NCBI GenBank assembly: GCA_030063045.1
Contig: JAQSEB010000151.1
Span: forward strand, 62,001-126,000
Direction of reading: 5' to 3'
Origin: Pratylenchus scribneri
Lineage: Eukaryota > Nematoda > Chromadorea > Rhabditida > Pratylenchidae
Length of the DNA: 64,000 nt
The notes under the pieces are model-generated. The model saw nothing but the letters and a program-made list of their open reading frames with translations, was not told where the DNA came from and ran no database searches. This document shows, piece by piece, positions 20,330 to 64,000 of this stretch (the stretch's first letter is position 1; every line of letters begins with the position of its first letter). A program made the translations under genes and the position numbers.

Positions 20330-21740
20330 GCCTTCACAATTGCATGAATAATGAAAAGTTGAAATAATATTAAAGCGCAACAGAAGGATGCCAACATTAA
20401 ATGTGAATATTTTTTAAAGAATTTTAGATAAAGTTTATCTTAAGTAGAACTATATTCTTTTAAGTTAAAATTTTTTAACGAAAAATTACTAGATATTAGG
20501 TATAGAGATTATATTTGAGCTGTCAATCAATGACCAAATTTATATTGGATTAGTCGAATCTAATTTCTTCAACATACAATCAATGTTGAGCATTCATACT
20601 CCTACACAAACTACGAAATACGAAATACGAGTATAATGATTATATAATGGCCTGTACGAGTATGAAACGCCTTTTTATCGTAATTTGTCATACCAAAAGT
20701 ATGATATAAAGTCAAAATTTTAGATGAAAATTTCACTTTTTCAGTAAAAAATTTGTGAAAATATGCCCAATTTCGATATTGGTTATCAAAATGGAAAATG
20801 GTAGGGAGTGGATATTCGGGCGCTCATCAGAACATTAGAGGGAGTGGATATTGGGGTGTTCATGTTCATCAGAACATTAGAGGGAGTGGATATTGCCTCT
20901 CGATTTGGGCCAAGCGAAATGGGCTGATGAGTTTGCGAACATTGGAAGCCAAAATCGAGCGATAATATCCATTCCTTTTAATGTTCTGAAAACTGGGCCC
21001 ATTTCGCTCGGCCCAAATCATGGGTCAATATCCACTCCCTTCAATGTTCCGTACACTCGGCCCAAATCATGGGTCAATATATCCACTCCCTTCAATGTTC
21101 CGTACACTCGGCCCAAATCATGGGTCAATATCCACTCCCTCCAATGTTCCGTACACTCGGCCCAAATCATGGGTCAATATCCACTCCCTTCAATATTCCG
21201 TACACTCGGCCCAAATCATGGGTCAATATATCCACTCCCTTCAATGTTCCGTACACTCGGCCCAAATCATGGGTCAATATATCCACTCCCTTCAATGTTC
21301 CGTACGCTCAGCCCAATCCCCCATTTTCATTCAGAAATTGTGGAAGTGAAGAAAACAGACAGAGAATTTGTTTTAGATTTGACCCTTGGCAAATAGGGAT
21401 ATATGATCATTAATCAGTTTTTTCTGTCAATACTATAGCTCATTTATTCTCAAATGAGGTCGTTTATTTAAACTAGTTTCTGATTTATTGGAAGCCAAAA
21501 ACTTTAAATTTGTACCATTATGGAATCGACCTAGCACCGAGAAAAAATAAGAATATTCAAACTATGATAAAAAAATTATCCATTCCACGCATTATAGTTC
21601 TTCTTTCTTAAGAACAACCTTATTAGTTAAAATTCTTTTCATAATAGATAATATTCAAATATAATGTTGACATCTTTATGTTGCACTTTAATATTATTTC
21701 AACTTTTCATCAACACTCCGATTGTGAAATCTTCAGGGAG
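20330..21740. repeat. Spacer and inner arms of a large inverted duplication
   Basis: The DNA at about 20333-20470 is repeated in inverted orientation at about 21600-21735 (matching words include TTGAAATAATATTAAAG and its complement). This continues the FLYWCH duplication (minus at 19.2-20.3, plus at 21.8-23.2). The central spacer carries the 49-51 bp tandem repeat. Confidence 0.75.
20800..21330. repeat. 49/51-bp tandem repeat with inverted outer copies
   Basis: About six direct copies of a unit reading CACTCGGCCCAAATCATGGG, TCAATATCCACTCCCTTCAA and TGTTCCGTA run from about 21010 to 21310; the unit alternates 49 and 51 bases (extra AT). At 20800-20900 inverted partial copies (AGGGAGTGGATATTGG) occur. 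All three plus frames are open, giving repetitive peptides, but the period alternation breaks any single frame, so coding is unlikely. Confidence 0.85.
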
Positions 21741-26951: not shown

Positions 26952-29900
26952 TTTTTCAGTTAAATTTTCTTCCTTCTTTTCTTGGTCATCAAAATATAAT
27001 TGTTGTAAATATTCGGCCAAATCAAAAAATTCCTTTTCCGTTTCTTTTTCTTTTATTTGTCTCTTTTCTTTTATCCCTCGCTCTTTGTACAATTCATGGT
27101 CTATAAAATTGTTTATTTAATTATTTGTTATTCAATTTTTAATTTAGATACCAAGTTTTATTTGCCCTAAAATAGTTTTCCATATTTGAATTTGCCCATC
27201 AAATTTCGTTCCTTCCAAATTAAGTGCATTTAAAATTCCATTTATATCTTTGCTTTCCAATTCCACCTCTTTCCATTTCTGAGTAATCCATGCAAATCTG
27301 AATGCGTGTAAATTCTTCCTCATTTTCTTAATTTTCTTCATATTATCAACGATTTTATTCTCTTCCACATTTTTAATAGGCTTTTTCAGGGCAATTTCAA
27401 TTCTCCTTAATAAATTATAGAGATATTTTTCCAATTCATTGATGTCTTCATATTCGTTTATTTTAATTCCATCTACTTTATTTCGAATTTCTCCAAACTC
27501 AATTTCATTTAAATTCAATAAATTTTTGTAAATTTCATCTATAGTGAATAAATTTTTGTGAATTTCCAATGCCTTCAATCGTTGGCCAATTTCAAATGAG
27601 AATACTAATATATCCATGAATCGAAGTTTTTCTTGATGTTGTTCATGATTATCAATATCTATCATTAATTCTTTGTAATGCATGTCTAGTGTATTGAATT
27701 CCATCAAATCTAAAATAACATTTTAATTGGATGGTAAAAAAATAATTTATCCGTAAAATCATTGAATTTATTCAAAATTTTTGGTGTTCAATAATTAATA
27801 TTTTTTGATGCAATAAAATTTGGACAAATTAATCTCATTTTCCCACATACAGCCCTTTATTTTAACCCTAAATTAAATCCTAAATAGGAAATTAAAACTC
27901 CAAACTTATTATCTGCCATGGCATATTTATATGGCATCAACTTTTGGATAAATTCAATCAATGATTTTATGGTTAAAATATTTTTCTCAATTTTAATATT
28001 TTCTCAAATTTTTACCTGCAAATTTATATTTTTTCAAAATATTTAATTTTGTAATCTGATTCTGTTTCCCTCTGTGTTGACTTTGATTTCCACCGCTTCC
28101 TAGGAATCCAGTGATTTCCGGTAATTGCTCATTTCTTTGTTTTTTCGTTTCTTTTCTCTTCCCTCCCGTAGCAGATGATGGTTTCTCTTCCCTCTCATCC
28201 GGCTCTTTTTCTGTTGCAGGAATTACTTTTGAATTTTCATTTTCATGTTTTTGCTTATTAGTACTTTCGCTTCGTTTCATCGCAATTTCATCATCTGCTA
28301 CTACTGTCGAAGTAATTTCTTTCTCTTCTTTAGACGATTTTGTCATTTCATTTCCTTTTCCATCATCTGCCAAAGGCAGATTTCCATCTTTTATTTTTTC
28401 AGTTATCTTTTTTTGCGATGATTTTTTTGGTTTATTAGCCTTTTTTTGCGGCGATTTACTTTGCTTCTTTGCCGTTTTTTGTGATGAATTTGCTGGTTTT
28501 TTTTGGTCTTGTTCCTTTTCGATATCTTTGACCAGTGAATCCACGGATTTATCTCCATTTAATGAATCTTCATTATCCTCATGAAAATCCAGCCCAAGTT
28601 TCTTATACAAAAAGTGAATATTCTTTTTATCAAGAATTTCATAAATTCGTTCTCTTTGTTGGGGATGCTTGTGTAAATCTGGAAATGTCCATTTAATTAA
28701 ATTAAAATAAAAAAATTCAAGTTAGGCCAAAATGCTGAAAATAGTAAAATATCCTAATATACTTAACGAGTTCTCGACCGAACGCATCTCTGTCCGAAAT
28801 ATTCTGTCTAAATTTTCGCTTTTTTGGCGTTTTGTATTTTTTAAATTTTTAAGATTATTTATCCAAAAATTAATAATAGAGTGAAGAAATAAAGAAAAAT
28901 AGTTTTTAGACATAAAGAATAAAGAAATAAATGACAAAATATTTTTATAATGAAAGTAAACAATTTTAAAAATAAATTTAAAAAGGAAAAGTAATTATAA
29001 ACTTAGTATTTATCAATTATTAATGAGTTAATTAAGTAAAATAAGCAACCGTGCGCTCTCTTAAACTTTTTATTCATTGAAATCAGATTAGAATGGGAAG
29101 AAAAAACGGGAATGAGTTGAAATAATGAGAAATGAGATAAAGCATAGAATTAGTCTCAAGAATAGGGGCGAAATTTGTTACAAATTAATAGGAAAATGAC
29201 GGGAATTGTCCCGGAATATTCGAGTATGATGTGAAAATCCTTAGAAATGTAAAAAATTAAAGAAATTATCGAGAATGAAAGTTAAGATACCGGGAATTCT
29301 TGAGAATGAATATAAAATGCCGAGCATAAAAAATCCAGAATTGTAAGATTGATTAGAAATATGTCGGGAATTATATAGAATGAGGTGTAAACTAAAATAA
29401 TAGTAATTTATCGAGAATGAAAGGTAAAAAGCCGGGAATGGTCGAGAATGATGCATAAAAAGCCGGGAATGGTCGAGAATGATGCATAAAAAGCCGGGAA
29501 TGGTCGAGAATGATGCATTAAAAAGCCGGGAATGGTCGAGAATGATGCATAAAAAGCCGGGAATGGTCGAGAATGATGCATTAAAAAGCCGGGAATGGTC
29601 GAGAATGATGCATTAAAAAGCCGGGAATGGTCGAGAATGATGCATTAAAAGCCGGGAATAGTCGAGAATGATGCATTAAAAAGCCGGGAATGGTCGAGAA
29701 TGATGCATTAAAAAGCCGGGAATGGTCGAGAATGATGCATTAAAAAGCCGGGAATGGTCGAGAATGATGCATTAAAAGCCGGGAATAGTCGAGAATGATG
29801 CATTAAAAAGCCGGGAATGGTCGAGAATGATGCATTAAAAAGCCGGGAATGGTCGAGAATGATGCATTAAAAGCCGGGAATAGTCGAGAATGAAAGGAAT

Positions 29901-50535: not shown

Positions 50536-51655
50536 TTATTAAATATTGATATGGGTTTATTTAATAATTAATTGATTAATTAACCGAAATTGCCTGGAAT
50601 AAAAAAGGGGTCAATTACTTGGGAACTATCTACTGTAATGTGAGTATAGGCGGATTAAGGGGGAAAGTATGGGATAAGGATGTACGGATTTGATGGGGAA
50701 TGAATGGGCTAATTTACCGGGCAACAACAAAGGTTGCCAAAGGATTGGGCAATGCAAAGATTGCCTGAAGAAAGGATTGGGCGGCAATTACAAAGATTGC
50801 CTGAAGAAGGGTGGATGTGGGGAAAGAAAGGCCAAAGCGAATTGCCAATTTACAAAGAATTGGGCTTAGGATGAACAATGTCGGGAATGGCCAGTTCCCT
50901 TCTTATAATGCTATGAAATTGATGAAAATGTGATTAATGTAAATGAATAAAGCTAATTTACTAAAGGGAATATACTTATAAAAGAGGGGAGTTAATCTAC
51001 TGTAAATTTGGAAATGGAATGTTTGAATAGCTTAAGGCTATTCAATTAATTAACTAAGTAAATGATGTAAATTGGGCCGGTGTTAAGAGCCTTAGTTATA
51101 AGCTTAACCTTACTCAGTTAGACCCGGGGGAAGAACCAAGGATAAACTTAAAACCTCACTGCTGGTTTTGCAATGGAAGAGAATTTATGATTAAATTCCT
51201 TTTTTATCCACAAAGGGAAAATCGAAGCACAAAATTGTTGAAGAAGTGAAAATTGTGAATATGGGGGGAACATAGAATGGATGAAAATGGGAGGAGTTGG
51301 GAATGTTGGTTTGGCCTCCGGCGCACACCTGGCCAAAAGAAGAAGGCAAAGTGGCAGTGGAAGGCGATGGGGCAAAGTGGCAGTGGAAGGCAATGGAATG
51401 GACGGGCGCATTAGGGCATTGGGTTGATGGGGGTCAGCAATGGAAGCCAAGCTAAAAATAGAGGGAACAAAGATGTGGGGAATAGATTAGGGGCCAAGGG
51501 GTTGAGGGTGGGAAAGTGGGCAAACCGATGGACGACCAAAGGTCCATCGATTTGACTTTTGATTTCGCGGATTGCTGCAAAGGCAATCCGCGACACTCCC
51601 ACCAAATAAAGAAGACCACCCGGGGAGAAGGGGACCACAAGAGAACCCCCTAAGT
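50536..51655 (-). repeat. 3' LTR of the retroelement (right edge approximate)
   Basis: The left edge is set by comparison with the second copy: TTATTAAATATTGATATGGG follows AAAAA here and CGCCAC at 63401. The right edge is uncertain, near 51645-51665, because the other LTR leaves the window. The minus strand just before it (about 51666-51680) is purine-rich (AAAAAGGGGACGGAACAGA), the likely polypurine tract. AATAAA on the minus strand near 50555 could be the poly(A) signal and TATAAGTATA near 50975-50985 a TATA-like element. The ends do not show TG..CA as read. Confidence 0.8.
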
Positions 51656-52255
51656 TTAGTATCTGTTCCGTCCCCTTTTTATTGTCCTCCTTACGTCTGA
51701 ACGCACAAAGGCATCCGGTAAGGAGTCAGTAACGATGTCGTCTTCCTCGTTGATTGCCTGAATTTTGGGATTAATTGGATTCCCTCCCAATTTTAGTGCT
51801 TCCAATTTTTGAATTTCCCTTATTGCTTCCCTTTTTCTTTCTTTCTTAATTATCCTCCTTATTCTAACTTCCATGACTTTGGTGTATACAAGGTAACACC
51901 ATTGGATGATAATGCCCGAAACTGTGATACGGGTGACAAAGACCCATCCATCGAATTTTGACCATAATGTCCCCCATATCGAGAAATTCTCGTCCGACAA
52001 AACGTCGGATGACCCTCCACCGGAGGAAGCTGGACCTTTTCCAGTCTTCAAAGAGAACTGACTAGTTCGATAGGATTTGAACAAAGTCATCATGTCCAAT
52101 TGACCTTCGGTTAAGTTGGTTATTATCAACTTTTGGAAAATTTGCAGATTTGTCTCTGGCAAATTGTGGTTCCACGCATTGTTTTGCGTGTTTAATTCGC
52201 TGATATTTTTGACCAATTCTTTGGTACCAGTCAGTTGATTTACTTGGAAAAGTTT
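51656..52255 (-). CDS. Env C-terminal part with transmembrane anchor (frame-shifted from the upstream ORF)
   Basis: This frame is open from about 52255 and overlaps the end of the upstream glycoprotein frame, one base out of register, near 52240-52255. Counted from 52216, a single hydrophobic segment at about residues 90-111 (WVFVTRITVSGIIIQWCYL) is followed by a long Arg/Lys-rich cytoplasmic-type tail ending at TAA next to the purine tract. Several N-x-S/T sites precede the anchor. It is the membrane-anchoring half of the same glycoprotein. As it stands the anchor is not joined to the ectodomain, so this copy would make a truncated product unless the frame is changed by recoding or the offset is a sequencing error. 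Confidence 0.75.
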   Translation of the reverse strand, partial: KLFQVNQLTGTKELVKNISELNTQNNAWNHNLPETNLQIFQKLIITNLTEGQLDMMTLFKSYRTSQFSLKTGKGPASSGGGSSDVLSDENFSIWGTLWSKFDGWVFVTRITVSGIIIQWCYLVYTKVMEVRIRRIIKKERKREAIREIQKLEALKLGGNPINPKIQAINEEDDIVTDSLPDAFVRSDVRRTIKRGRNRY

Positions 52256-54591
52256 TCCATCAAAAAAATTGCTTTATGTTGATGCTCCAAGCATGGAACA
52301 GTTTTTGCTTCATTATGCAAGATCATTGTTTTCGGATCGAGGTAAGTCTCAAAGGGCTCACTATTCTCGAACAGAGTTACATTGACTAGCAACCTCTCAA
52401 AGCAGGTATCGGCAGGAACAATTTGGTACTTGTACACAAAGGAACAAGACCAGTATTCCAGGATATTTCCTGTTGCCCAACTTCCAGCCAGCATGGGAGA
52501 ATTGGCCAATTCTCTGATCAATAATGTTGGGTTGATATGCGAGAAATCATGGCCGAATAGAGAATCCGAAATATAATCACACACAAACTTCGTGTAAGCT
52601 TGGAGCGAATTTCGCAATTCTCGATCGGCGAACATGGCTCTGGCTTGGAGTTGTGTTTCCAATTGACTGACTCGAACCTGGCCATCAAAGGGCTCTTGGG
52701 CTTCTCTTTTTGACCTTTTCTTGATCAGATTTATCATTGTTTCATATTCGTCATGTTCGATCGCGAATCCTTGCTGGCTAATCACCAACTGATTATTGCA
52801 AGAGGTTATTCGCTCCGGATTCTCGGCGAATGTTAGGGACATGTCTGGTGGATTGCTGAGCCATCCGCTTCTGTAGAAAATGCCATTTCTCTTTTCAAAT
52901 CTTTTGAAAATGCAACGGCGATAATCCGAAGTCAAAGCTTCAGTTCCTTGTCCCTTTTCTGTCTTCCATACGATAATGGACTCGCCTCTTATTCGGCAAT
53001 ATCCATCCGAATATCGGCATTGAGCCAAATTGTCAAAGGGTGAAGTGACTTCTTCTGAACCCGGTCGACTGATCAAAGTCAGATTTTTCAGAATGCAATT
53101 TGTGGCCACTGCTCTTTTCTTTCCTATTGACCAATAGGATAGCTCATAGGCTAATTTTTTCCCCGTGGTCATTGTCCCTTCTGGGTCTCCAAAGAGAAAT
53201 CCTTCTCTACATTTATGTCGTTTTGCCATTTCTTCACAGTCTTCCTTTGAGACTGACAAAATTTCCTGATTAGGTATTTCAAAAGGATCATTGAACCAGT
53301 TTTTCCAATATGTCATTTCATGTCGAATGATGGAACATTCGAATCCGGAAAAGGTATAGTCGATTTGGTTAGGCTTATACAAAGTAAGACTAAAGTTAGT
53401 GGGTTCATGGTCAAACAATTGTCCGAAATTTAGGCAACTATTATGATTATGCGAAATTTTCACAAATTTGGATTCACTATTAAAGTGACACACCATTGGT
53501 TGGCTACCCATGATTAATGAGCAACAAAGGCTCAGTGAATATAATAACAAAATTGAGCTCACGTGCAAAGACGAATTAGTCCAAATTCTTCTTTTGTACA
53601 TACCCTTTGTCCTCTTAAATTTTGATTGTTTCTTACCCTTTCGCGGAGGCGATAATCCGGCATCAATCCATTCTTCTTCATCGCTCAATGTCAAGGGTTT
53701 GCTGTACTCCATTGGTGAGGTTGTTCGAGCGGGTTGTATTGATCGATTTTCGTTCATCGCAAAGGATGAAGTCGCTTCCATTCTTGACTCAAAGGTCGAG
53801 GTAGACGATGTTGTTATCATCTCAAAGGATGATGAAGAACCTTTGCCATTTGATGGTGCCTCTGGCTCAAAGGCCATTGGGTGAATTTTGTCATGGACTG
53901 GGACCAACAGCTGTGCCTTTCCTTTCATTTTTCTAATATATTCTGCGTTGTCCATCCCAATTACTCCTAAAGCCTTTCCCAATTCCGTCCAATTGCATTC
54001 CTGGATGTGGTCAATGGTCGCGTTCACATGCGTTAAGAATTTCTGCCAACACTCAGGACCGATGCAGCTTGCTGCATTTCCCTCTCGCTTGAATGGTGTT
54101 ACTATTAGCACGGTCATGTTTTCAAATCTCTCTGTTCTGGGGGCAACCTTTCCTTCTCTTGGCAAAACCTTTGATGTATGGAATTCCGTTGTTTGTAACC
54201 ATTTTAAGAAACCACAAAGGGTATCCAAAACGGGTTTCGTTGTCGTGAATTCTCCCTTGAGGCCCTGGGCGAGTCGAAGGTGTTTTTCAACATTTAAATA
54301 ATCCTCAATCATGACTTGACCGTAGATAGAGGGATAACGTTCAAACAAATTCGGGAGTAGTCCTAACTTCGTTAGATACGTCTGAACAAGAAGCACCAGG
54401 CTGAACGAGTTCAATCCTTGATGTTTCGGATCGACAAAGCGATCGGCGAAGGAGCGGATGACATTGCAAATGACGGGAAAAAGTGGGTTGATGTTTATTA
54501 ACGTTCGCAACCATATCCCGTTAAATATCTGTTCGAGTTGATTCGAATTTCCGATCGAAATGTCGATTGCTTTCCCTTTGTATTTGATCAT
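52240..54591 (-). CDS. C-terminal half of a Cid1-like nucleotidyltransferase fused to Env ectodomain
   Basis: The 783-residue ORF begins at an ATG overlapping the previous ORF's stop (ATGA). Residues 1-15 contain Asp10 in KAIDISIGN, which fits the third catalytic Asp of the nucleotidyltransferase whose first two Asp lie at the end of the preceding frame. Residues about 30-75 (NPLFPVICNVIRSFADRF, HQGLNSFSLVLLVQTYL) match the PAP-associated helical domain of Cid1/TUTase enzymes, which add U or A to RNA 3' ends. A Ser/Thr-rich linker follows. Residues about 335-360 form a hydrophobic segment after Lys/Arg residues, probably an internal signal sequence for the glycoprotein. The ectodomain is Cys-rich with a furin-like RSKR site at residues 626-629. 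It resembles Env proteins acquired by other nematode retroelements in layout; its exact fusogen class is not determined here. Confidence 0.8.
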   Translation of the reverse strand: MIKYKGKAIDISIGNSNQLEQIFNGIWLRTLININPLFPVICNVIRSFADRFVDPKHQGLNSFSLVLLVQTYLTKLGLLPNLFERYPSIYGQVMIEDYLNVEKHLRLAQGLKGEFTTTKPVLDTLCGFLKWLQTTEFHTSKVLPREGKVAPRTERFENMTVLIVTPFKREGNAASCIGPECWQKFLTHVNATIDHIQECNWTELGKALGVIGMDNAEYIRKMKGKAQLLVPVHDKIHPMAFEPEAPSNGKGSSSSFEMITTSSTSTFESRMEATSSFAMNENRSIQPARTTSPMEYSKPLTLSDEEEWIDAGLSPPRKGKKQSKFKRTKGMYKRRIWTNSSLHVSSILLLYSLSLCCSLIMGSQPMVCHFNSESKFVKISHNHNSCLNFGQLFDHEPTNFSLTLYKPNQIDYTFSGFECSIIRHEMTYWKNWFNDPFEIPNQEILSVSKEDCEEMAKRHKCREGFLFGDPEGTMTTGKKLAYELSYWSIGKKRAVATNCILKNLTLISRPGSEEVTSPFDNLAQCRYSDGYCRIRGESIIVWKTEKGQGTEALTSDYRRCIFKRFEKRNGIFYRSGWLSNPPDMSLTFAENPERITSCNNQLVISQQGFAIEHDEYETMINLIKKRSKREAQEPFDGQVRVSQLETQLQARAMFADRELRNSLQAYTKFVCDYISDSLFGHDFSHINPTLLIRELANSPMLAGSWATGNILEYWSCSFVYKYQIVPADTCFERLLVNVTLFENSEPFETYLDPKTMILHNEAKTVPCLEHQHKAIFLMENFSK

Positions 54592-57500
54592 GAGAATGGG
54601 ACCCGAATTACTAATGGCCGCTCGTCAATGGTCATCCGTCTGCAGAGTATTCCATTCATGGCGTTCAAAAGGGCTACTGGTTCGAGGTTCACTTCAAAGG
54701 TGAACACCACTACCACGTCGAGGTCCGAACCTTTGCGCCCTAATCCGGATAGGCTTGAACCAAAGGGAAAAGCTGAAACCGATTTCCATGAGTTTAAGGC
54801 CCTATCTATCTCTTCAACAATTTCTGCCTTCTTTCTAAGCTCTTCTTCATCTTCCTTTTCCTGTTCATATTTATCGAAGATAAGAGCCGTCAGCCGGTTT
54901 TTGTCCAAATCTGGGTTATTGATTTGAAGATTCTCGAAAAAATGTGTGTACGCGGAATCATTTGGCTCAAGGGCCGGTTCAGTGCCTACATTCTTTTGCA
55001 TTTGATCATTTATTGGCGCAAAGGCCAAATCATGTTGGTTTTGCGAAAATTTCGTTGGCACAAAGGCCGATTTACCTTGTCCTTGTGGCTGCTGTTGCAT
55101 CTCATCACGGATTTCCATCAAAATTCTCCCAAGGTTGTTTTGTCCGCGCAGCCGATCAAGGTCCAAGTGTGGTCGTCTTTCAAAGATTTCTCGATGGTCA
55201 CATCCAATACCCCAATCGCTGTCGGACGACATCTCAAAAATATGAGCATTTCCTGTCTTCAGCAAAGTGGTACGAGCTGGTTCTTGGCGGAATTTGGCAA
55301 CCAATCCTTCCTTCATTATGCCATATTTGATCCGGCTCCATTGATATTGGTCGAGGCCGATTTTGTGGGCTTTGCATTCCTCTTTTATTTGCGCAGGTGT
55401 CCAATTGAAGTTGACAATTTCGTAGGCCAGTGTAGATCGATTTGCGAAGAGAGCCTTCTGTTGGCAGTACCACTGTTCTGAGGACGTATAAAGTTGGTTG
55501 TTGATTGTGAATCTTGTTTCTTCATTAAAGTTTGAAAGATGGAATTTTTTCGTGAAGAATCCTAGTGCTTCGCCAAAACGGCCGCAATCCACAATTATAC
55601 AATCTGGCTCAAAATTGGGATAATCGACGGGAATTGCTGGAAATCCGCGAAAGGCAGGTTGTTCGTTTTGCTCTTCCATAGGATACACAGGTGGTGCTGT
55701 TGGACTCGTTGTTCGTAGACCATCAACAAAGGATGGATTGTCGCGTAGACCATCAACAAAGGATGGATTGTTGCTTAGACCATCAACAAAGGATGGTTCG
55801 TTGTATGCGTCATCGACAAAGTATGGACCTTGTTGCAGCGTATACGATTCTTGGGAGAATACGGCATTTATCACGGATCTTTGTCCAAATGTTGGCTGCT
55901 TCATCATCGATGACGGCCCTGCTTGCTCACTGTTGGATTTGATCTCGTTCCATTTGCGTTTTGATGTTTTGCTCTTTGCCTCATCAATGAACTTGTCGAG
56001 AGCTGAGTCTTTGTTTTGCCTATCATAGGGTATTCCTTCGTCGACGAGTTGGTCATGGATGAGTTCCAAATCCAAGTTCAGTGGCACACTGATGCAGGTC
56101 ACATCAGGGAAATAAATATTGGAGCCAATCCAGAAGACTTTGATGTGTCGATTTGCCGTTAAAAGGCTTTCGATGAATTGGGCTGCTTTGTTGTTTACGT
56201 CATCATGGGTCCAAATCACGAATGCCTTGACTTGACGCCGAATGTCCATTCGTTGGAAAAGTGAATCCCACCAATCGGCTGCTTCGAGTGACTTGACAAG
56301 CAATAAACAGCGCATGAAGTTTATTTGGAAGAGTTTTGTCAAACGAATTATTCGAATGTCGTTGCCGAGAAAAAGGACCGGCGCAGCCACAGATATTTTT
56401 CCATCATACTTTGTTGTTTTCAGCATGATTCGTTCATCTTCAGTCAATTTCTCTGGCAATGATTCGATTTCGTCACTGGGCATGTCATTCGTGTAAAGGG
56501 TGACACCTTCCTCGACCATCGTTACACCTGAAATTGAATTGTTATAATTATCCGCAAAGGGATTTTCATCTTCTTCAGAGTTGCCCTGATCTGTTCCCCT
56601 AGTTTGGATTTCCGATTCCGAACCAAATTCTAGTGGGTACAGGTTTTTTGTTGCGCGTTCAAAGAGCTTATTACCGATTTTAACTTGCGCTGTGCGTGAA
56701 GATACAAAGTCTTCGATTTTGCCTAATTTCCAAGCGGAGCGCGGCGCATTTTGATCTGCAACTATAACTTCATCGCCAATCTTGGGAAACTTCTCGCCTC
56801 TTTTGAGGCATCCAAAGTGCCTTTCTCTTAATCCAAGTAGATAAGAAGTCTTCCATTCATTCCAGAATTGATTAGCGATGAGCTGCGCATTTTTATAGCT
56901 TTCAAGCAGTTTATCTTTTCTTGATCTGATCTCAACATAATCGGGATCATTTGGATCGAATGTTTCTGATGAAACGTCCGGTCCATCCATCGAAAGTGAC
57001 GGGGAAACCAAGTCAATTGGTCTCAAAGGACGAATGACTTCGTTTTCCGATAAAAAACTCAAAGGTCTTTCATTTATGATTCGCTCGATTTCAATCAAAG
57101 TTGTCCACAATTCCTCAAAGCTTAAAAGCTTGTTCCGGATTTCCCTCTTCATGTGGTATTTGACTATCCCTATTAACCGCTCATATTGGCCACCGCGCCA
57201 TGGGGCACACGGGGAATTAAAGAACCATTCAATTTGGTTCTGCGTGACAAACTCTTTCACTTCTTTCGATGTGTATATGCCATCCCAACTTGCTCTGAGT
57301 TTGGCATTTTCTTCAGCCATTGCTTTAATTGCCTTTTCGCCCAAAATAAAATTTGAGCCATTGTCACTTATAATTCGCTTCGGTACTCTCCAACGGCGAA
57401 TAAATCGCGTAAAAGCGAGAACGAATTTCGCTGCTGAAGCGTCTGTGACAATTTCCAAATGTATCATTCTTGTTCGAGCGCATGCAAAGATGGCTCCCCA

Positions 57501-58256
57501 AACTTTGTGTTTGTCCTTTCCGCAGGTGGACTTAACTGCTAATGGTCCAAAATAGTCAATGCCGACCGTTTCCCATGCCATTTCTCCCGAGACTCTGTAT
57601 TCTGGGAGAGGGGGTTCATCCGGATATAGGTAAGCTTTGACTTGGAATCTTGCACAAAAACCGCAAAGGGTTTTCTTATTCTTCTTTATCACTTGGATGA
57701 TTTTTTGTCGGCAACTGGGAATCCAATATTTGGTGCGAATCGCAGCAGTTAGATTCGTCACACCAGCATGTTTTCTGAGCAGGTGTTCCTCCTTAATGAT
57801 TAAGTCAGTGATTGGGGCTTGCTTCGCAATGAAGATTGGATGGATGCTGCTGAGTTCGATTTTGCTCTTTTGAATCCTTCCTCCTGCTTTCCAAATTTGA
57901 TTTTCTTGGAAGAGCCCGAGACTGATGATAGTATCATTCGATGGAGGAAACATTGCTTGGGCTTCAAGAATAAGCAAATTTTCGGCTTCCTTTAATTCGT
58001 CCACCTTCAAAGGTGTCATTTCTGAAAATGCCAAATTTAATTCTATGGGCTTATCTGGTTTGGATTTGCCCTTCCGCTTGAAAAATTCGATGGCTCTAAT
58101 CAAGTAGGCTGTTGCATTCTTCAATCTGCGTAATTGTGAAAAATTTTCGTAGTTGAACAATGGAAACACAAGGGGTTCATTTTGGGTTATATTGGCCATG
58201 CTCATTTCCCAATTGCATTCCGGCTTTTTCCACTGGAATATATGTTTTGGGATCAA
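54588..58256 (-). CDS. Integrase, unknown alpha/beta domain, NADAR domain and start of a TUTase
   Basis: This ORF has 1222 codons. Zinc-binding H2C2 residues are His158, His163, Cys198 and Cys201. The catalytic triad of the retroviral-type integrase core is Asp234 (GIDYFGP), Asp298 (IISDNGS) and Glu359 (RGGQYER), followed by a Pao-type C-terminal domain (GDEVIVADQNAPRSAWKLG, residues about 494-545). Residues about 617-760 form an unrecognised alpha/beta segment. Four PSFVDGL-like repeats occur at about 811-848. Residues about 899-1025 match NADAR/YbiA-like N-glycosidases: LSNFNEETRF, YTSSEQWYCQQKALF, RIKYGIMKEGLVAKFRQ and WGIGCDHR. A Glu/Lys-rich helix follows, then FPFGSSLSGLGRKGSDLDV with Gly1166-Ser1167 and Asp1178/Asp1180, the nucleotidyltransferase signature. 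The frame ends at TGA in mid-domain. It overlaps the upstream ORF by 80 bases, one base out of register. Confidence 0.88.
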   Translation of the reverse strand: MIPKHIFQWKKPECNWEMSMANITQNEPLVFPLFNYENFSQLRRLKNATAYLIRAIEFFKRKGKSKPDKPIELNLAFSEMTPLKVDELKEAENLLILEAQAMFPPSNDTIISLGLFQENQIWKAGGRIQKSKIELSSIHPIFIAKQAPITDLIIKEEHLLRKHAGVTNLTAAIRTKYWIPSCRQKIIQVIKKNKKTLCGFCARFQVKAYLYPDEPPLPEYRVSGEMAWETVGIDYFGPLAVKSTCGKDKHKVWGAIFACARTRMIHLEIVTDASAAKFVLAFTRFIRRWRVPKRIISDNGSNFILGEKAIKAMAEENAKLRASWDGIYTSKEVKEFVTQNQIEWFFNSPCAPWRGGQYERLIGIVKYHMKREIRNKLLSFEELWTTLIEIERIINERPLSFLSENEVIRPLRPIDLVSPSLSMDGPDVSSETFDPNDPDYVEIRSRKDKLLESYKNAQLIANQFWNEWKTSYLLGLRERHFGCLKRGEKFPKIGDEVIVADQNAPRSAWKLGKIEDFVSSRTAQVKIGNKLFERATKNLYPLEFGSESEIQTRGTDQGNSEEDENPFADNYNNSISGVTMVEEGVTLYTNDMPSDEIESLPEKLTEDERIMLKTTKYDGKISVAAPVLFLGNDIRIIRLTKLFQINFMRCLLLVKSLEAADWWDSLFQRMDIRRQVKAFVIWTHDDVNNKAAQFIESLLTANRHIKVFWIGSNIYFPDVTCISVPLNLDLELIHDQLVDEGIPYDRQNKDSALDKFIDEAKSKTSKRKWNEIKSNSEQAGPSSMMKQPTFGQRSVINAVFSQESYTLQQGPYFVDDAYNEPSFVDGLSNNPSFVDGLRDNPSFVDGLRTTSPTAPPVYPMEEQNEQPAFRGFPAIPVDYPNFEPDCIIVDCGRFGEALGFFTKKFHLSNFNEETRFTINNQLYTSSEQWYCQQKALFANRSTLAYEIVNFNWTPAQIKEECKAHKIGLDQYQWSRIKYGIMKEGLVAKFRQEPARTTLLKTGNAHIFEMSSDSDWGIGCDHREIFERRPHLDLDRLRGQNNLGRILMEIRDEMQQQPQGQGKSAFVPTKFSQNQHDLAFAPINDQMQKNVGTEPALEPNDSAYTHFFENLQINNPDLDKNRLTALIFDKYEQEKEDEEELRKKAEIVEEIDRALNSWKSVSAFPFGSSLSGLGRKGSDLDVVVVFTFEVNLEPVALLNAMNGILCRRMTIDERPLVIRVPFS
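55182..55562 (-). other. NADAR (YbiA-like) domain within the retroelement polyprotein
   Basis: Residues about 899-1025 of the integrase ORF. The order of conserved blocks fits the NADAR superfamily: an aromatic LSNF near the start, an acidic SEQWYCQQK helix, a basic WSRIKYGIMKEGL helix, LLKTGNAHIFEMS and a closing W-G-x-G. Characterised members are N-glycosidases; some remove ADP-ribose from guanine bases and others act on riboflavin intermediates. Key residues appear present, so activity is possible (inference). Confidence 0.8.
55700..55830. repeat. Short in-frame tandem repeats encoding PSFVDGL
   Basis: Three direct copies of ACCATCAACAAAGGATGGAT-type units (about 30 bases; 55718-55795) plus a diverged fourth one encode PSFVDGL and FVDDAY on the minus strand, upstream of the NADAR domain. 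They form a linker that could vary in copy number between elements. Confidence 0.8.
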
Positions 58257-61200
58257 AGTCCCTGATGCTTTCGGGCCATTTGGCTTCTTCCAAATGAATC
58301 CAATCAGGTCCTTTAAACCACAAAGGGTTATCGATCAATTCACTTGGAGTGCATCCACGAGAAGCCAGATCTGCTGGGTTTTCTTTTCCTGGAATGTGTG
58401 TGACCCTAAACTTCCTGAGTACTTTGACTCTATTGTTGATGAATCGATTCTTTTCCTTGTATGTTTTCAAATAATCAACAACGTCAGTGGAGTCGGTCCA
58501 AATACGGATTACATTGATTGGAATCGTTTTTTCCACTTCCTTCTTCACAAAGCCAATGTTGTTGACTGCTAATCTTGCTGCATGTAATTCTAAAGATGGA
58601 ATGCTTCTGTCTATGCGTTCCAGTTGAGTGGGAATCACAAGACTTTTGGCATAAATGAGATTGCATGAGATTTCATCATTCTTTCCGACAATGCGTAGGT
58701 AAATGGCGATGCCTAAACCTTCGATTGAAGCATCGGAAAATGCGTGAAGCTCATATCTTTTCGCTTTATCTTTGGGAATTTCCGCACAAAGGCGGGGAAA
58801 TTCAACCATTCGATCATTCCAAAGGGTCATTAACTTTCTCCATTCAATGACTAATTCATTGTTAATCACTGTATCCCACTTCAACTTCTTATCCTTTTCA
58901 ACCTTTTGCATAATCAATTTGCCTTTCAAAACGATTGGTCCAGTCAAACCAGTTGGATCGTATGGTTTGTGAATTTGGGAAAGGATTGAACGACGAGTGA
59001 TCGGCTTGTCCATATCAAAGTATGGGAATTTGACCGCCAAAGTGTCCTTTCGAACATTCCAATGTAAGCCTAAAAGCTTAGTCATTTCCCCTTCCGTTCT
59101 GTCTTCTTCTGGCAGTTCCAGAATTTCTTGCCATGCATTTGAAGTAAATTCGCGAACATTCATGTTAGCTTCTTTAAAAATTTTCTTCAAATATTCGTAA
59201 TTCCTTTTCGTGTCTTCTGCTCTTTCCATTTCGATGGATATATTGTCGACATACGAATCCGATTCCAAATTGCGAACAATGTCTCCTTCATACAATTTGA
59301 AATGATTGTTGAGCACCACTTGTAAATGTGCTGGACTGCAAATCACTCCAAAGGTGACTCTGCAGAATCTGAATTCAGTCAATGTCTTTTGGTCATTCGG
59401 ATCTGTGAACCAAAGAAATCTAAGTGCATCCCTATCCTCTGGTGCGATTCCAATTTGGAGGAATGCCTTTTCAACATCACAAGTCATCAAATATTTCTTC
59501 AATCTTGATCGAATCAAGATTCCAGTTAAATCATTGTAAAGCTTGGGTCCTTTGTTCAAGCATTCGTTCAAAGACGGATACTCTTTGCGAAGTTTTGCAC
59601 TTGCATCGAACACGATTCTAATCTTTGTAAATACTTTGTCCTGCCTCTCAACAAAGTGATGAGGTAGATAGTGTGTGACTTGACTTCTTTTCTTTGGTGC
59701 TATTTCAATTATGCCTTTTTTCAATTGATCTTCAAAGATCTCATTGTATTGCTTCATCAATGCTGGATTTTCCTTCAGCTTTTTCATTGTTGATCGAAGC
59801 CTTCCAATGGCGAGTCCATAATTATCTGGAAGTGCATGAACTTCATCATTCCAGCTTAATTTGACTTCATATCTTTCGCCATTGAAGTACAATTTGTCTT
59901 CGAAATCCTTTAACCATTTCTCATCATCATTGCTTATTAAATCCGAAAGTCCGATATTTTCGAGCAAATTCTGTCTTTCGATCAGTTTATCGAGATTGGC
60001 ATCTGATACCTTTCCTGAATTTTCGTTGAAGTCAAACTCAAAGGTTTGATCCATCACACAACCAGTGATTGCTTCTTCCTTGTATTCTATTTCATGATAT
60101 TGAAGCGTTTGGTTCCTTTCGGCATATTTAATTTCATTGAAATGCTCGATTTTTCCTTCACCGCTGATTATCGGTCCCAGTTTGGATGAACTGATCCAAA
60201 ATCCATTCGGCAGTTCTGTGACTGGTGTAATGCCCAAATGATTGTAATAATCACCGCCAATCAGGATTTCTGGTTCCTCCATTGTTGGTTTGAATTTAAT
60301 CTTATTCATTTTGAGCTTATTCAGAATCTTTTCTTCGTATTTGATGTAAGGCAATTTGGGCATCACACTATTGATTGATCGAACTTTGATTAGCATGTCC
60401 AATTCCTTTCCTTTTAGACCGAGTTCAAAGACTCCAGTTCTGAATTGTCCTAACTTCTTTCCACCAATTCCGGTAATTTCAATGTTGGTTGTTTTTAAAG
60501 TTTCAAGTCCTAATTCTTTGATGAGTGAATCCTTGGCATAGCTTTTGTGGCTGCCATCATCCAGGAAACCTAAAGTGCATTTTTTCTTCTTCTTTGAATC
60601 CAATGGATTGTACACGGTGATTTGTGCACATTTGAGTAAAGAATGCACTTCAGTCGAATCCTTCATGCATCCGCTTGCCACAAGTGTCGAAGCACTCATT
60701 TCGGATTCGGATGTCTCATTCGCATTCACTTGTTCTTTCTTGATCTTGATAGTATATCGTTTCGGACATAAAGCCGGGTGATGCTTAATAGTTCTACAAA
60801 GGATACATTTAAGCTTATATCGGCTGCAGTCGCTTGCGAAATGTCCAGGATTGAGGCACACATAGCAAAGTTTTTTATCCATAGCTGTCTTTCTTCGTTG
60901 TTCGCTATTCCGGAATTTTGGGCAATCCATTTCGAAATGTCCTAATCCATCGCAAAGGCGACAAGGGTTTCGAGCTGGACTTCGACTTCGACTTGTGCTT
61001 GGAGACTTCCCTGACCTGGCTTTTGCTCTGCCACTGGCGTCAGGATGAGGCGAATCATTCCTTTTGTCCATCTTTCTTCCTTCGCGCCTGCTTGAAGAAG
61101 AATGATTGGACGTCGAGGAATCTCGGCTTTCCGACCTATTCCTCGCCGGACTTTGCCTTTCAGCTCTTTGTCCTAATGGTGTTCGATTACTCCCAGTGGC

Positions 61201-61407
61201 TGGATTGCTGTTTAATGCATATTGAATTGCCATGTTCATTGTGGAGCTCAAAGGCTCTTCTTCGCTCAACTTTTCTTTTGTTCGTTCCCTTGATTTGCGT
61301 TTGCTCTCCGTCGTGGTAACTTGACCACATCTTGTTTCGATGTCCCTAATCTGTTTGAGATGATCAACCGCTATTGCGTATGCTGTACGAAACAAGTCGT
61401 AGTCCAT
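58177..61407 (-). CDS. Retroelement protease, reverse transcriptase and RNase H
   Basis: The 1076-residue frame opens directly after an in-frame TGA. Two CCHC zinc knuckles (CRLCDGLGHFEMDC at 149-162; CYVCLNPGHFASDC at 181-194) are followed by an aspartic protease-like LDDGSHKSY (282-290). The reverse transcriptase has DASAKLRK (601), motif A TCDVEKAF with Asp644 and motif C YVDN at 719-722. RNase H-like residues are Asp892 (FSDAS), Glu940, Asp972 (WTDST) and Asp1013. The layout is that of the BEL/Pao group. The second Asp of the usual YxDD box is Asn here. It overlaps gag by 37 bases (61371-61407) and the integrase frame by 80 bases, each one base out of register, whereas relatives generally make one continuous gag-pol. 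Confidence 0.93.
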   Translation of the reverse strand: MDYDLFRTAYAIAVDHLKQIRDIETRCGQVTTTESKRKSRERTKEKLSEEEPLSSTMNMAIQYALNSNPATGSNRTPLGQRAERQSPARNRSESRDSSTSNHSSSSRREGRKMDKRNDSPHPDASGRAKARSGKSPSTSRSRSPARNPCRLCDGLGHFEMDCPKFRNSEQRRKTAMDKKLCYVCLNPGHFASDCSRYKLKCILCRTIKHHPALCPKRYTIKIKKEQVNANETSESEMSASTLVASGCMKDSTEVHSLLKCAQITVYNPLDSKKKKKCTLGFLDDGSHKSYAKDSLIKELGLETLKTTNIEITGIGGKKLGQFRTGVFELGLKGKELDMLIKVRSINSVMPKLPYIKYEEKILNKLKMNKIKFKPTMEEPEILIGGDYYNHLGITPVTELPNGFWISSSKLGPIISGEGKIEHFNEIKYAERNQTLQYHEIEYKEEAITGCVMDQTFEFDFNENSGKVSDANLDKLIERQNLLENIGLSDLISNDDEKWLKDFEDKLYFNGERYEVKLSWNDEVHALPDNYGLAIGRLRSTMKKLKENPALMKQYNEIFEDQLKKGIIEIAPKKRSQVTHYLPHHFVERQDKVFTKIRIVFDASAKLRKEYPSLNECLNKGPKLYNDLTGILIRSRLKKYLMTCDVEKAFLQIGIAPEDRDALRFLWFTDPNDQKTLTEFRFCRVTFGVICSPAHLQVVLNNHFKLYEGDIVRNLESDSYVDNISIEMERAEDTKRNYEYLKKIFKEANMNVREFTSNAWQEILELPEEDRTEGEMTKLLGLHWNVRKDTLAVKFPYFDMDKPITRRSILSQIHKPYDPTGLTGPIVLKGKLIMQKVEKDKKLKWDTVINNELVIEWRKLMTLWNDRMVEFPRLCAEIPKDKAKRYELHAFSDASIEGLGIAIYLRIVGKNDEISCNLIYAKSLVIPTQLERIDRSIPSLELHAARLAVNNIGFVKKEVEKTIPINVIRIWTDSTDVVDYLKTYKEKNRFINNRVKVLRKFRVTHIPGKENPADLASRGCTPSELIDNPLWFKGPDWIHLEEAKWPESIRDFDPKTYIPVEKAGMQLGNEHGQYNPK

Positions 61408-62291
61408 TCAGATCCCTCGGGCATGCTAGCCAACTTTGCAGTTTTCAATTCAACATATTTGGCTAAAACCTTACGTGACATTTTCTGTTCGAGATTGAGA
61501 TAAATCTGAGGTGACTTTAAGTCTTGCTTGTAATGTTCCAATTGACGGCAAATTCTCTCTACTTCGACTTGCAGTTTCAAATCGTCTGACAACTTGTCTG
61601 ATTTGGGCAGTCTAGAGAGTTGATTGTGTAAATCTCGAATGAGATTCTCATTTTTGCCATATTTATCAATCAACAAATCCTTGGCTAGCCTATAATTATC
61701 TTCCGAAAAAGGAAACAACCCAAGAATGCACTTTTTGGCTTCGCCTCGAAGTTGTGCATCCAAATAGGACATTTTCTGTACTTCATTCATTTCGGTGTCG
61801 TCATCGATCATCGTTTTAAACAGTGGCCAAAATTCATCCCACATTCCTGGGGAACCGTCAAAACTCTTCAAAGAGAGTGCGGGAAGCGAAACAAAGCGCC
61901 TTCCCCCGCCGCCACTTCCACCAGCATTGTCCAAAAGTCGGTCAATGCCGTCTTTTGCTGTCCGGATCAGGTTCAGTTTTGTTCCGGCTTGTTTTATGAA
62001 TTTTTGAATTTCTTCATACTTAATCAATGCTTCGTATTCTGCCTTTTCTTCGACTCTGCTTGCGTCATTCAGTCTGCTGAGATACGAGTGATAAGCAGTT
62101 CGGGCTGCTTTTATTTCGTCAATCTGAGTGACAAATTCTTCTACCCAAGTTCTTAATTGTCTCTGATCGCATGTCAATAAGTGCCTTTCACGGCTGCTAT
62201 TGATCGATGCTGGGACGACAGGGATGACCTTATCCATATAATTTGTTAATAGCTCCTTGGCGTCTAGAATTCTATGAGCAAATGTGGCCAT
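61371..62291 (-). CDS. Gag of the BEL/Pao element
   Basis: This ORF starts at an ATG (62291) after a 1.1 kb leader and has 306 residues. An N-terminal coiled-coil-like region is followed by a Gly-rich hinge (about 123-130). The Pao-type gag core (about 135-300) follows: LKSFDGSPGMWDEFWPLF, SYLDAQLRGEAK and LIRDLHNQLSRLPK. It is expected to form the particle shell with the zinc knuckles that lie in the next frame. The C-terminus is cut off where the frame diverges from the pol frame. Confidence 0.9.
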   Translation of the reverse strand: MATFAHRILDAKELLTNYMDKVIPVVPASINSSRERHLLTCDQRQLRTWVEEFVTQIDEIKAARTAYHSYLSRLNDASRVEEKAEYEALIKYEEIQKFIKQAGTKLNLIRTAKDGIDRLLDNAGGSGGGGRRFVSLPALSLKSFDGSPGMWDEFWPLFKTMIDDDTEMNEVQKMSYLDAQLRGEAKKCILGLFPFSEDNYRLAKDLLIDKYGKNENLIRDLHNQLSRLPKSDKLSDDLKLQVEVERICRQLEHYKQDLKSPQIYLNLEQKMSRKVLAKYVELKTAKLASMPEGSEWTTTCFVQHTQ

Positions 62292-63384
62292 GATTGAATG
62301 TGCGCAAAAATTATCTAATTGGCTTCAAAGAGTCAATTATAGTAAACAAATTGCCTTAAAATTTCAATCAATCGCAAGCTCTTTGAACGCAATTCAAAAA
62401 ATAGGGGAATGAGTAAATTGAATCGGAAATCCAAATAATTTGACCGTATTTGGGTATGGGCTAACTACTGTGGTTCTTGAATTAAATTGAAATCAAAGTT
62501 CAATTTAATTTTCTCAGATTGGCCTAAATAAGGGTATGGGAGCTGAGATTGTTACTACTGATTGGCTCTTTATATTTGTGTTCAATTACCAAGGAGTAGT
62601 AATCTGCACTTTCTCAAATTAAATTGAAACAAAGTCGAATTTTAATTTGAGATTTACTGCAGTAATTTAATTTTCAACCAGTCTTTGTTTTGAATCGATT
62701 TTCTTGTTGAATTAGAATTCTAATTATTCAATTGAATAATTAAAATGATTAAATTAAGGTTAAATACAAAGTTCAACTTTAATTTAATCGATAATCAACC
62801 ACAAATCAAAATCCCTTAATATTGGCTGTCAATTAGCTTGGGTTAAGTTTCGGCTGGATATAGAGTACTATTGAAATGTCGGGGTTGCTAAAATTTAATT
62901 TCTATTACCACCAAATTAGAAAATTTTATAGGTGAAATTTGAATATAATAATCTCGAATTGAATAAAAATTTGGTGGTTAGAAGAAATTAAATTTCAGAA
63001 TCTATTATTTGTCTCAATAATAGACCCTCCGGACAAGGAAAAGGAAAACTGGCCTTCCAAAATTATTCGAAGTGCACAAAGGCAAATTTGGAAGAAATGG
63101 CAATTGGGTACTGTAGTTCAAAGGCGCACAAAGGCACAAACCACAAATGAAATCAATGAAAATGGCACAAAGGCTAAAAATAGAAAAGGTAAAGTCAAAC
63201 GCGGAAAGGGAAAGTACCGGTGAAGATGGTCACAAAAACCAAAAAAAAAAAAAATTGGTTAAAAGGGCCAAAAAAGCACAAAGGCTGAAATGGAAAATAC
63301 AAATGTGGAATTTTTTAAAAAAAATAAAATTATAATTACCAGGCCAAATTTCGATTAGCGAAGAAACCGATTGGGCAGGTATTG
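62292..63384 (-). other. Untranslated leader of the retroelement
   Basis: This lies between the primer site and gag. Long runs of AATTTAATT and AATTGAA words and repeated GCACAAAGGC motifs (63070-63290) are seen; no conserved ORF. It probably holds packaging signals (inference). Confidence 0.6.
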
Positions 63385-63399
63385 GAGCAGGGTCGCCAC
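63385..63399 (-). other. Primer binding site
   Basis: The minus strand reads TGGCGACCCTGCTCC, one base after the LTR edge at 63401. TGG at this position is complementary to the CCA of a tRNA 3' end; the GGTCGCCA end is of the kind found in some arginine tRNAs used by other LTR elements. The tRNA itself is not in the window. Confidence 0.75.
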
Positions 63400-63400
63400 T

Positions 63401-64000
63401 TATTAAATATTGATATGGGTTTATTTAATAATTAATTGATTAATTAACCGAAATTGCCTGGAATAAAAAAGGGGTCAATTACTTGGGAACTATCTACTGT
63501 AATGTGAGTATAGGCGGATTAAGGGGGAAAGTATGGGATAAGGATGTACGGATTTGATGGGGAATGAATGGGCTAATTTACCGGGCAACAACAAAGGTTG
63601 CCAAAGGATTGGGCAATGCAAAGATTGCCTGAAGAAAGGATTGGGCGGCAATTACAAAGATTGCCTGAAGAAGGGTGGATGTGGGGAAAGAAAGGCCAAA
63701 GCGAATTGCCAATTTACAAAGAATTGGGCTTAGGATGAACAATGTCGGGAATGGCCAGTTCCCTTCTTATAATGCTATGAAATTGATGAAAATGTGATTA
63801 ATGTAAATGAATAAAGCTAATTTACTAAAGGGAATATACTTATAAAAGAGGGGAGTTAATCTACTGTAAATTTGGAAATGGAATGTTTGAATAGCTTAAG
63901 GCTATTCAATTAATTAACTAAGTAAATGATGTAAATTGGGCCGGTGTTAAGAGCCTTAGTTATAAGCTTAACCTTACTCAGTTAGACCCGGGGGAAGAAC
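63401..64000 (-). repeat. 5' LTR of the retroelement, cut by the window end
   Basis: It matches 50536-51135 base for base as far as it is visible. Its outer edge and the flanking target duplication lie outside the window. Confidence 0.92.

Follow-up and report, generated by a model that had tools for sequence, protein, structure and literature searches.

A BEL/Pao (belpaovirus-like) retroelement on the minus strand of a 64,000-nucleotide stretch of Pratylenchus scribneri DNA (contig JAQSEB010000151.1, positions 62,001 to 126,000; hereafter the window, numbered from its first letter) carries a cassette between its integrase and its envelope glycoprotein (Env): an alpha/beta domain, a NADAR domain and a Cid1/GLD-2-type nucleotidyltransferase (NTase). 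We read the element as a recent, now broken copy whose Pol-linked cassette may process the element's own nucleic acid, a reading drawn from sequence comparison to which we give slightly less than an even chance. Retroelements are known to capture envelope genes, and in nematodes part of the silencing of transposons works through small RNAs and non-templated tails on RNA. NADAR domains in retroelements are known already; a NADAR beside an RNA-tailing NTase, both under selection, is apparently new, as it was not found in the literature searched. With this defined, expressible enzyme pair one can ask whether RNA tailing and nucleic-acid ADP-ribosylation are processes that transposons fight or exploit, and the sister families, which differ in the presence of NADAR and of the third NTase aspartate, form a natural comparison. 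Published articles are cited here for the portions of their text available to us.

The cassette and the element that carries it

The features of the element, with the cassette first, are as follows.

55098..55544, minus strand: NADAR domain (Pfam 1e-24, alignment)
54690..54887, minus strand: Cid1/GLD-2-type NTase, first part, with GS..DLD at 54717-54764 (Pfam MTPAP-like 1.3e-8)
54110..54624 (lower end approximate), minus strand: NTase, second part, in another frame, with the third Asp at 54556-54570 and a PAP_assoc-like motif at 54388-54414 (motifs, alignment of relatives)
55998..56417, minus strand: alpha/beta (Rossmann-like) cargo domain (alignments, AlphaFold2 model, fold comparison)
51656..53560, minus strand: Env in two frames, with a signal-like hydrophobic core at 53521-53559, a furin site KKRSKR at 52705-52722 and a membrane-anchor-like stretch at 51884-51937 (by eye)
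56634..57806, minus strand: integrase, with H2C2 at 57681-57806, rve at 57201-57512 and DUF5641 at 56634-56900 (Pfam)
58180..61407, minus strand: pol frame, with three CCHC-like motifs (60766-60963), DUF1758 protease, reverse transcriptase motif YVDN (59242-59253) and Peptidase_A17 (Pfam and motifs)
61374..62324, minus strand: gag-like frame with DUF1759 (Pfam 7.3e-26)
63382..63399, minus strand: putative primer binding site, GTGGCGACCC..., directly inside the 5' long terminal repeat (LTR)
63400..64000, and on to 64459 outside the window, minus strand: 5' LTR, 1,060 bp, 100% identical to 50536-51595
50536..51595, minus strand: 3' LTR, 1,060 bp, identical to 63400-64459

The 227-Mb assembly (276 contigs) was searched for the cargo and gave 96 NADAR matches, 31 of them in frames of at least 551 codons. 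All 31 are followed on their own strand by a downstream NTase (PF22600), which at 29 shares the reported frame, so the arrangement is not due to chance; a cargo confined to the window copy, for which the initial annotation had left room, is thereby excluded. These places comprise family A (19), its diverged relative A2 on contig C131 (one), family B on C45 (one) and family C (10, including the window and the diverged C2 on C5); membership of family A was assigned by score and frame, and nine of its 19 places were fetched. Among the matches listed, where B and C do not appear, DUF5641 lies upstream at 18 of the 19 family A places, and Pfam finds integrase, DUF5641, NADAR and NTase palm in the pieces of both A and B. 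An NTase together with integrase or DUF5641 matches also occurs in two more families, D (C57, C15) and the degraded E (C79, C17). Fifteen BEL/Pao 3' pieces were fetched and 12 of these other pieces scanned (L030, L034 and L043 left out): none of the 12 carries NADAR or NTase, and their Env is of phlebovirus type in 10 and without a match in two.

Profile searches place both enzymes of the window above their Pfam cut-offs. The NADAR-like domain, annotated initially at 55182-55562 and now refined to the boundaries given above, scores 88 bits against PF08719 (cut-off 35.1), and the corresponding matches in the pieces of families A and B reach 1.1e-35 and 4.8e-28. Its catalytic E and K lie in 55455-55484, a W in 55326-55343 and E, D and W in 55212-55238. 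The residues E, K (seven residues on), E (of the YbiA type), W, D and W, which have been shown or proposed to be important (PMC11543638; PMC9303266), are invariant in all seven aligned rows from families A, B and C and are present in the window. Structural relatives in the PDB are YbiA and 8bau. By profile and catalytic residues the window domain fits the YbiA subfamily, and N-glycosidase activity is predicted for it.

The NTase starts near 54887, and its palm leaves the 1248-codon frame and continues in the next one. The Cid1-like NTase that had been annotated at about 54850-54360 therefore stands in identity and span, by palm and motifs, but not as an intact enzyme of the window, since it straddles the frame break. 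The MTPAP-like palm scores 35.5 bits (cut-off 27), with 6.9e-18 and 2.5e-14 in the pieces of families A and B, and the GS..DxD motif and the third aspartate are invariant in all seven rows from families A, B and C. PAP_assoc reaches 26.2 and 26.5 bits in family D (cut-off 22.6) and a sub-cut-off 18.7 in A, with none reported for B or the window. The unbroken NTases of the relatives match PDB structures of TUT7, TUT4, GLD-2 and Cid1, the top match being TUT7 for A (1.2e-21) and D (7.8e-30) and GLD2 for C (4.4e-16). Palm and catalytic residues thus mark the window cargo as a probable Cid1/GLD-2 nucleotidyltransferase, with RNA 3'-tailing as its predicted activity. The uridine-selecting histidine of Cid1, at the position where we take it to lie, was not seen by eye in the printed sequences, which settles nothing. 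The third catalytic aspartate is replaced by Gln in D (L044) and E (L046); the two NTase families in which no NADAR was detected thus have Gln at this position, and the three that have NADAR retain Asp.

The third cargo domain lies between DUF5641 and NADAR, or between DUF5641 and the NTase in D and E, and consists in families A-E of approximately 130-160 residues with alternating strands and helices. Outside family C its identity is 13-29%, with one invariant Asp. AlphaFold2 gives a fair model of the domain in the window (pLDDT 75.6, pTM 0.72), which is Rossmann-like in fold comparison; the model of the family A domain is poor. Family A has about 190 extra residues ahead of this domain, for which no significant match was found. 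The linker ahead of NADAR in the window contains a 30-base repeat in three copies (55716-55827).

Behind the NTase, the signal-bearing, furin-site glycoprotein noted in the initial annotation was recovered by eye, with a signal-like stretch, KKRSKR and an anchor-like stretch. The window piece is 98% identical to the Env of L027, which in turn shares 29% identity with the family D Env; as E-values for single comparisons, C matches D at 5e-88 and A matches B at 4e-43. The Envs of A, B, C and D align, and many cysteines are invariant. Against Monjiviricetes_fusion (PF24664, cut-off 27), A scores 20.9 bits and D 20.8 and 19.5, all below the cut-off, and B and the window show no reported match; a PDB search with the window Env gave E=0.39 at best. 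Because of this homology chain to Envs with a sub-cut-off match, the window Env resembles a chuvirus-type glycoprotein, a class whose PF24664 cut-off these Envs do not reach.

The element as a whole runs from 64459, beyond the window end, to 50536, and its Gag and Pol domains, integrase, LTR pair, primer binding site and YVDN motif place it in BEL/Pao (Belpaoviridae). DUF1759, the DUF1758 protease, the reverse transcriptase (RVT_1, 7.9e-9) and Peptidase_A17 (8.5e-39) all score above their Pfam cut-offs. In the integrase, DUF5641 (1.2e-9) is above its cut-off and the H2C2 zinc finger (4.3e-5) and rve (1.1e-4) are both below theirs, which bears out the earlier description of a BEL/Pao integrase followed by further coding sequence. 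Matches to the first 601 bp of the 5' LTR lie at 22 genomic places (eight at 100%, 13 at 99% and one at 98% identity; two matches are partial), and the element family is therefore young. No exact repeat marks a target-site duplication; the flanking TTATTT and TTTTTT (element strand) are one base apart in A/T-only sequence. At the position corresponding to the window's GTGGCGACCC, family A has TTGGCGACCC.

The window copy consists of five minus-strand frames overlapping end to end, which contain, in order, the Gag-like part; Pol; integrase, alpha/beta domain, NADAR and the first part of the NTase; the second part of the NTase and Env; and the end of Env. In sister copies of family C a single frame that contains NADAR can reach 3,559 codons; measured against these, the window copy has four broken junctions, including one inside the NTase and one inside Env; L024 has an Env break similar to that of the window copy. 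Identical LTRs together with broken frames indicate either that a defective template was copied very recently or that the breaks are partly sequencing error.

Selection, history and known relatives

Over NADAR and NTase, family A shares just 22-25% identity with B and C, and all catalytic residues checked are still kept. The ratio of non-synonymous to synonymous change (dN/dS, Nei-Gojobori) is 0.058-0.107 for NADAR (five pairs) and 0.063-0.143 for the NTase (six pairs), compared with 0.032-0.175 for the integrase (nine pairs), 0.060-0.124 for Env (four pairs) and 0.133-0.227 for the alpha/beta region. These pairs have dS values that are neither zero nor saturated; they share copies, and family B, being one copy, is not in the set. 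Pairs with saturated dS were dropped, namely L024 and L027 with L023 (NADAR and NTase) and L014 and L011 with L010 (whose NTase pieces are also misaligned). Six Fisher tests show an excess of synonymous change (p 1e-6 to 4e-13). Both enzymes are under purifying selection and, because their dN/dS is similarly low, are constrained about as the integrase and Env are.

L024 and L023 share 92% in the integrase, 48% in NADAR and 61% in the NTase, and between L024 and L028 the integrase pieces (500 codons) do not differ at all, but NADAR has 15 differences. The pattern indicates that copies have swapped cassette and backbone with one another, as would be expected if two RNAs were co-packaged. In the integrase tree, B, C, D and E group together (98.4/99), apart from A and three other families. 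The simplest reading, weakly supported, is a single capture of the cassette followed by loss of NADAR in D and E; two separate gains would also be compatible with these data. The trees omit E (NTase tree), the C15 copy of family D (integrase tree), the partial L064 (NADAR tree), the second domain of the NADAR gene on C80 and the host sequences L050 and L052.

Several known systems share parts of this architecture. Atlas virus and other nematode endogenous belpaoviruses have, like the window element, a BEL/Pao Gag-Pol-Env organization, the reverse transcriptase motif YVDN and a nematode host (PMC9094657); their Env, however, is of phlebovirus (class II) type, and the available text mentions neither NADAR nor nucleotidyl-. 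The Anakin Pao elements (PMC7642597) use as Env a chuvirus glycoprotein, a kind to which the window family has only a sub-cut-off match; their hosts are mosquitoes, and nucleotidyl is never mentioned in the portion of that article available. A YbiA-family NADAR occurs in retroelements in Ectocarpus Gypsy elements and in Crassostrea Tx1 LINE ORF1 (PMC12477816). These belong to other superfamilies, with NADAR N-terminal in the Gypsy Pol or within the LINE ORF1, and the accessible text describes no NTase or Env with them. As for whether the combination had been described before, which the initial annotation could not say, one half is thus already published, namely NADAR in retroelements, and for NADAR plus NTase the literature searched gave no report. 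The element NTases of A, B and C share with GLD-2, TUT4/TUT7 and Cid1 the GS..DxD palm, the third Asp and a PAP_assoc-like region; they differ in being embedded in a retroelement frame and in separating from GLD-2, TUT4 and TUT7 in the tree (support 92.8/76). SNA-3 of SL1 trans-splicing is a nematode NADAR protein tied to RNA, similar in this domain to the element; it differs in being cellular, with three NADARs (PMC9303266). The tree does not place the element NADARs inside the host tandem-NADAR clade, nor does it reject a joint clade.

NADAR, an RNA nucleotidyltransferase and Env in one element were not found together in the literature searched, mostly without subscription papers, and neither was any publication on BEL/Pao with a nucleotidyltransferase; the available text of PMC11118728, on transposons of plant-parasitic nematodes, contains none of the terms looked for. 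A protein search with window residues 620-1248 gave none at E<=0.001 among 7989 scored candidates. The NADAR-NTase of family A as query gave two among 7997, one a TUT-like protein and the other a LINE-ORF1-like protein that has NADAR, and neither search revealed another species with the NADAR-NTase element architecture. All 16 loci from a scan of IMG/VR match only the first 201 residues of the query, its NADAR part. In a splice-site scan of seven cargo regions, no acceptor common to the families was found. The LINE-ORF1-like protein (by eye) with NADAR, P0004 of a public data set, is like the oyster Tx1 ones.

Possible roles of the cassette

We propose that a BEL/Pao lineage took up, between integrase and Env, a cassette of the alpha/beta domain, a NADAR N-glycosidase and a Cid1/GLD-2-type RNA nucleotidyltransferase. 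The enzymes would be made as part of Pol, because one frame of the open copies encodes cassette, integrase and Env and, judged by its length, also the remainder of Pol, and they would be carried with the element RNA into the particle. The NTase would extend the 3' ends of element RNA, restoring or protecting ends that nematode silencing cuts and tails, and NADAR would strip ADP-ribose from guanines in element RNA or DNA, so that the two together may form a nucleic-acid maintenance or counter-silencing module. That both enzymes are kept by selection in many copies suggests that they help the element to survive or copy itself. The poly(UG) tails that RDE-3 of Caenorhabditis elegans puts on the RNA of transposons and viruses silence that RNA (PMC12265681); by analogy, tailing of the RDE-3 type would be the most obvious opponent of a self-tailing enzyme. 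A more specific proposal, which we regard as rather doubtful, is that the Pol-linked module opposes both tailing-based and ADP-ribose-based silencing and that the SL1 sequence in the LTRs of family A (see below) is the start of R, with trans-splicing regenerating the strand-transfer sequence; if true, host RNA processing would be met at both ends of the element RNA.

Several observations weigh against processing of the element's own nucleic acid by a cassette captured once. No NADAR match was obtained with Pfam in families D and E, which, together with their replaced third NTase aspartate, means that the pair is not indispensable. In the window copy, an intact NTase or Env cannot come from one frame, and the single NTase change between L024 and L025 is non-synonymous. 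The element NADARs form one group in a 30-sequence tree with a support of 36/36, which is weak for one capture, and in a 15-sequence tree A stands apart from B and C (monophyly not rejected, p-AU 0.23). The NTases of A and D have uridylyltransferases as their best PDB relatives and that of C has a poly(A) polymerase; with this mixture the base preference is unsettled. NADARs also act on riboflavin intermediates, and the NADAR substrate of the element is therefore not fixed.

The same enzymes might instead be aimed at the host, with NADAR removing defence ADP-ribose marks or signals and the NTase tailing host small RNAs or mRNAs and so weakening RNA interference. A review proposes that NADARs of RNA viruses, including nidoviruses of nematodes, target host ADP-ribosylation (PMC9503650), and RNA interference is suggested as the opponent by an Argonaute-type PAZ domain that a different BEL/Pao piece in this genome carries; yet a Pol-fused enzyme might be scarce outside particles, and we consider such a role unlikely. 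An improbable reading is that NADAR couples the element RNA to the SL1 machinery. The exact SL1 22-mer is present in family A LTRs at at least 16 of 19 places, on both sides at 14 and on one side at two, and the host gene on C80 has tandem NADARs; but the window, with its family C LTR, has no SL1-like site within four substitutions, the element NADARs do not fall within the C80/C93 clade (a joint clade is not rejected, p-AU 0.33), and the NTase would be left unexplained.

Still less probable is that the cargo is passive baggage or a non-catalytic structural scaffold, a view that the loss of the third NTase aspartate in D and E and the dispensability of NADAR would favour and against which the low dN/dS and the invariant catalytic residues in A, B and C argue. 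A metabolic role, in which NADAR clears reactive riboflavin intermediates and has nothing to do with nucleic acids, appears highly improbable. Bacterial and plant NADARs do act on such intermediates (cited in PMC9303266 and PMC11543638), and the family A domain finds its best PDB match in YbiA (3.8e-12); however, this activity has no evident use to a retroelement, the NADAR neighbours an RNA-tailing enzyme, and hydrolysis of guanine-ADP-ribose is conserved across several NADARs (PMC11543638).

SL1 in family A LTRs and other observations

The genome contains 227 exact SL1 copies, against none of the reversed control, which marks it as that of a nematode, and family A LTRs contain the exact 22-mer (for example L054, L055 and L012:2344-2365). 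Among the matches listed (100 of 227), SL1 pairs flank the copies on C7, C10 and C65, and no SL1 lies near the B and D copies (C45, C57, C15); the C4 copy of family A has no exact SL1, and C97 and C188 lie outside these matches. At 25 places, including C131 (A2), SL1 is continued by the same 15 bases. The SL1 of the C11 copy begins 166 bases short of the LTR end, with AATAAA no more than 20 bases behind it and the primer binding site right after the LTR. In SL RNA genes SL1 is followed by GTAA, which is the case at only five of the 227 sites. Approximately 190 of the 227 show neither GTAA nor a tie to placed family A copies, and several listed pairs are 2.0, 2.6 or 3.6 kb apart.

We suggest that in family A a trans-spliced genomic RNA was once reverse transcribed and left SL1 as the start of R. 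The genomic RNA of Cer1 is not SL1 trans-spliced, whereas its spliced mRNA can be (PMC3315495), and by analogy this pattern points to a conflict that an SL1-bearing LTR would resolve. No report of SL1 inside an LTR was found in the literature searched, with the same coverage as above.

Nine loci among the remaining 65 NADAR matches of the genome were viewed; in six the domain is interrupted at roughly one shared position, as an intron would do, two run through without a break, and the loci look like cellular genes. One host gene (L049, C80:269150-271450) has tandem NADARs and is SNA-3-like, and further NADAR genes break at a common place in the domain. An uninterrupted host NADAR frame on C75 (L001) is overlapped by a second frame with G-patch-like sequence (by eye).

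Other BEL/Pao pieces carry cargo of different kinds. L031 (C1:2692566-2698562), with a phlebovirus-type Env, has an Argonaute-type PAZ domain behind Env at codons ~1060-1165 (Pfam 9.3e-4, below the cut-off; PDB argonaute-2 PAZ, 7.2e-6), and L035 (C33) has a PAZ match in Pfam only (0.0058), with no PDB match to PAZ; these domains could bind the 3' ends of small RNAs. A WW domain (2.1e-8) lies behind Env in L033 (C1:5216585-5222578). Elsewhere in the window, two long diverged ATC triplet arrays (2561-3942 and 4514-5809) have long plus-strand open frames and a GC skew near -0.65, and tandem arrays of 51-base and 32-base units occupy 21007-21316 and 29425-29893, respectively.

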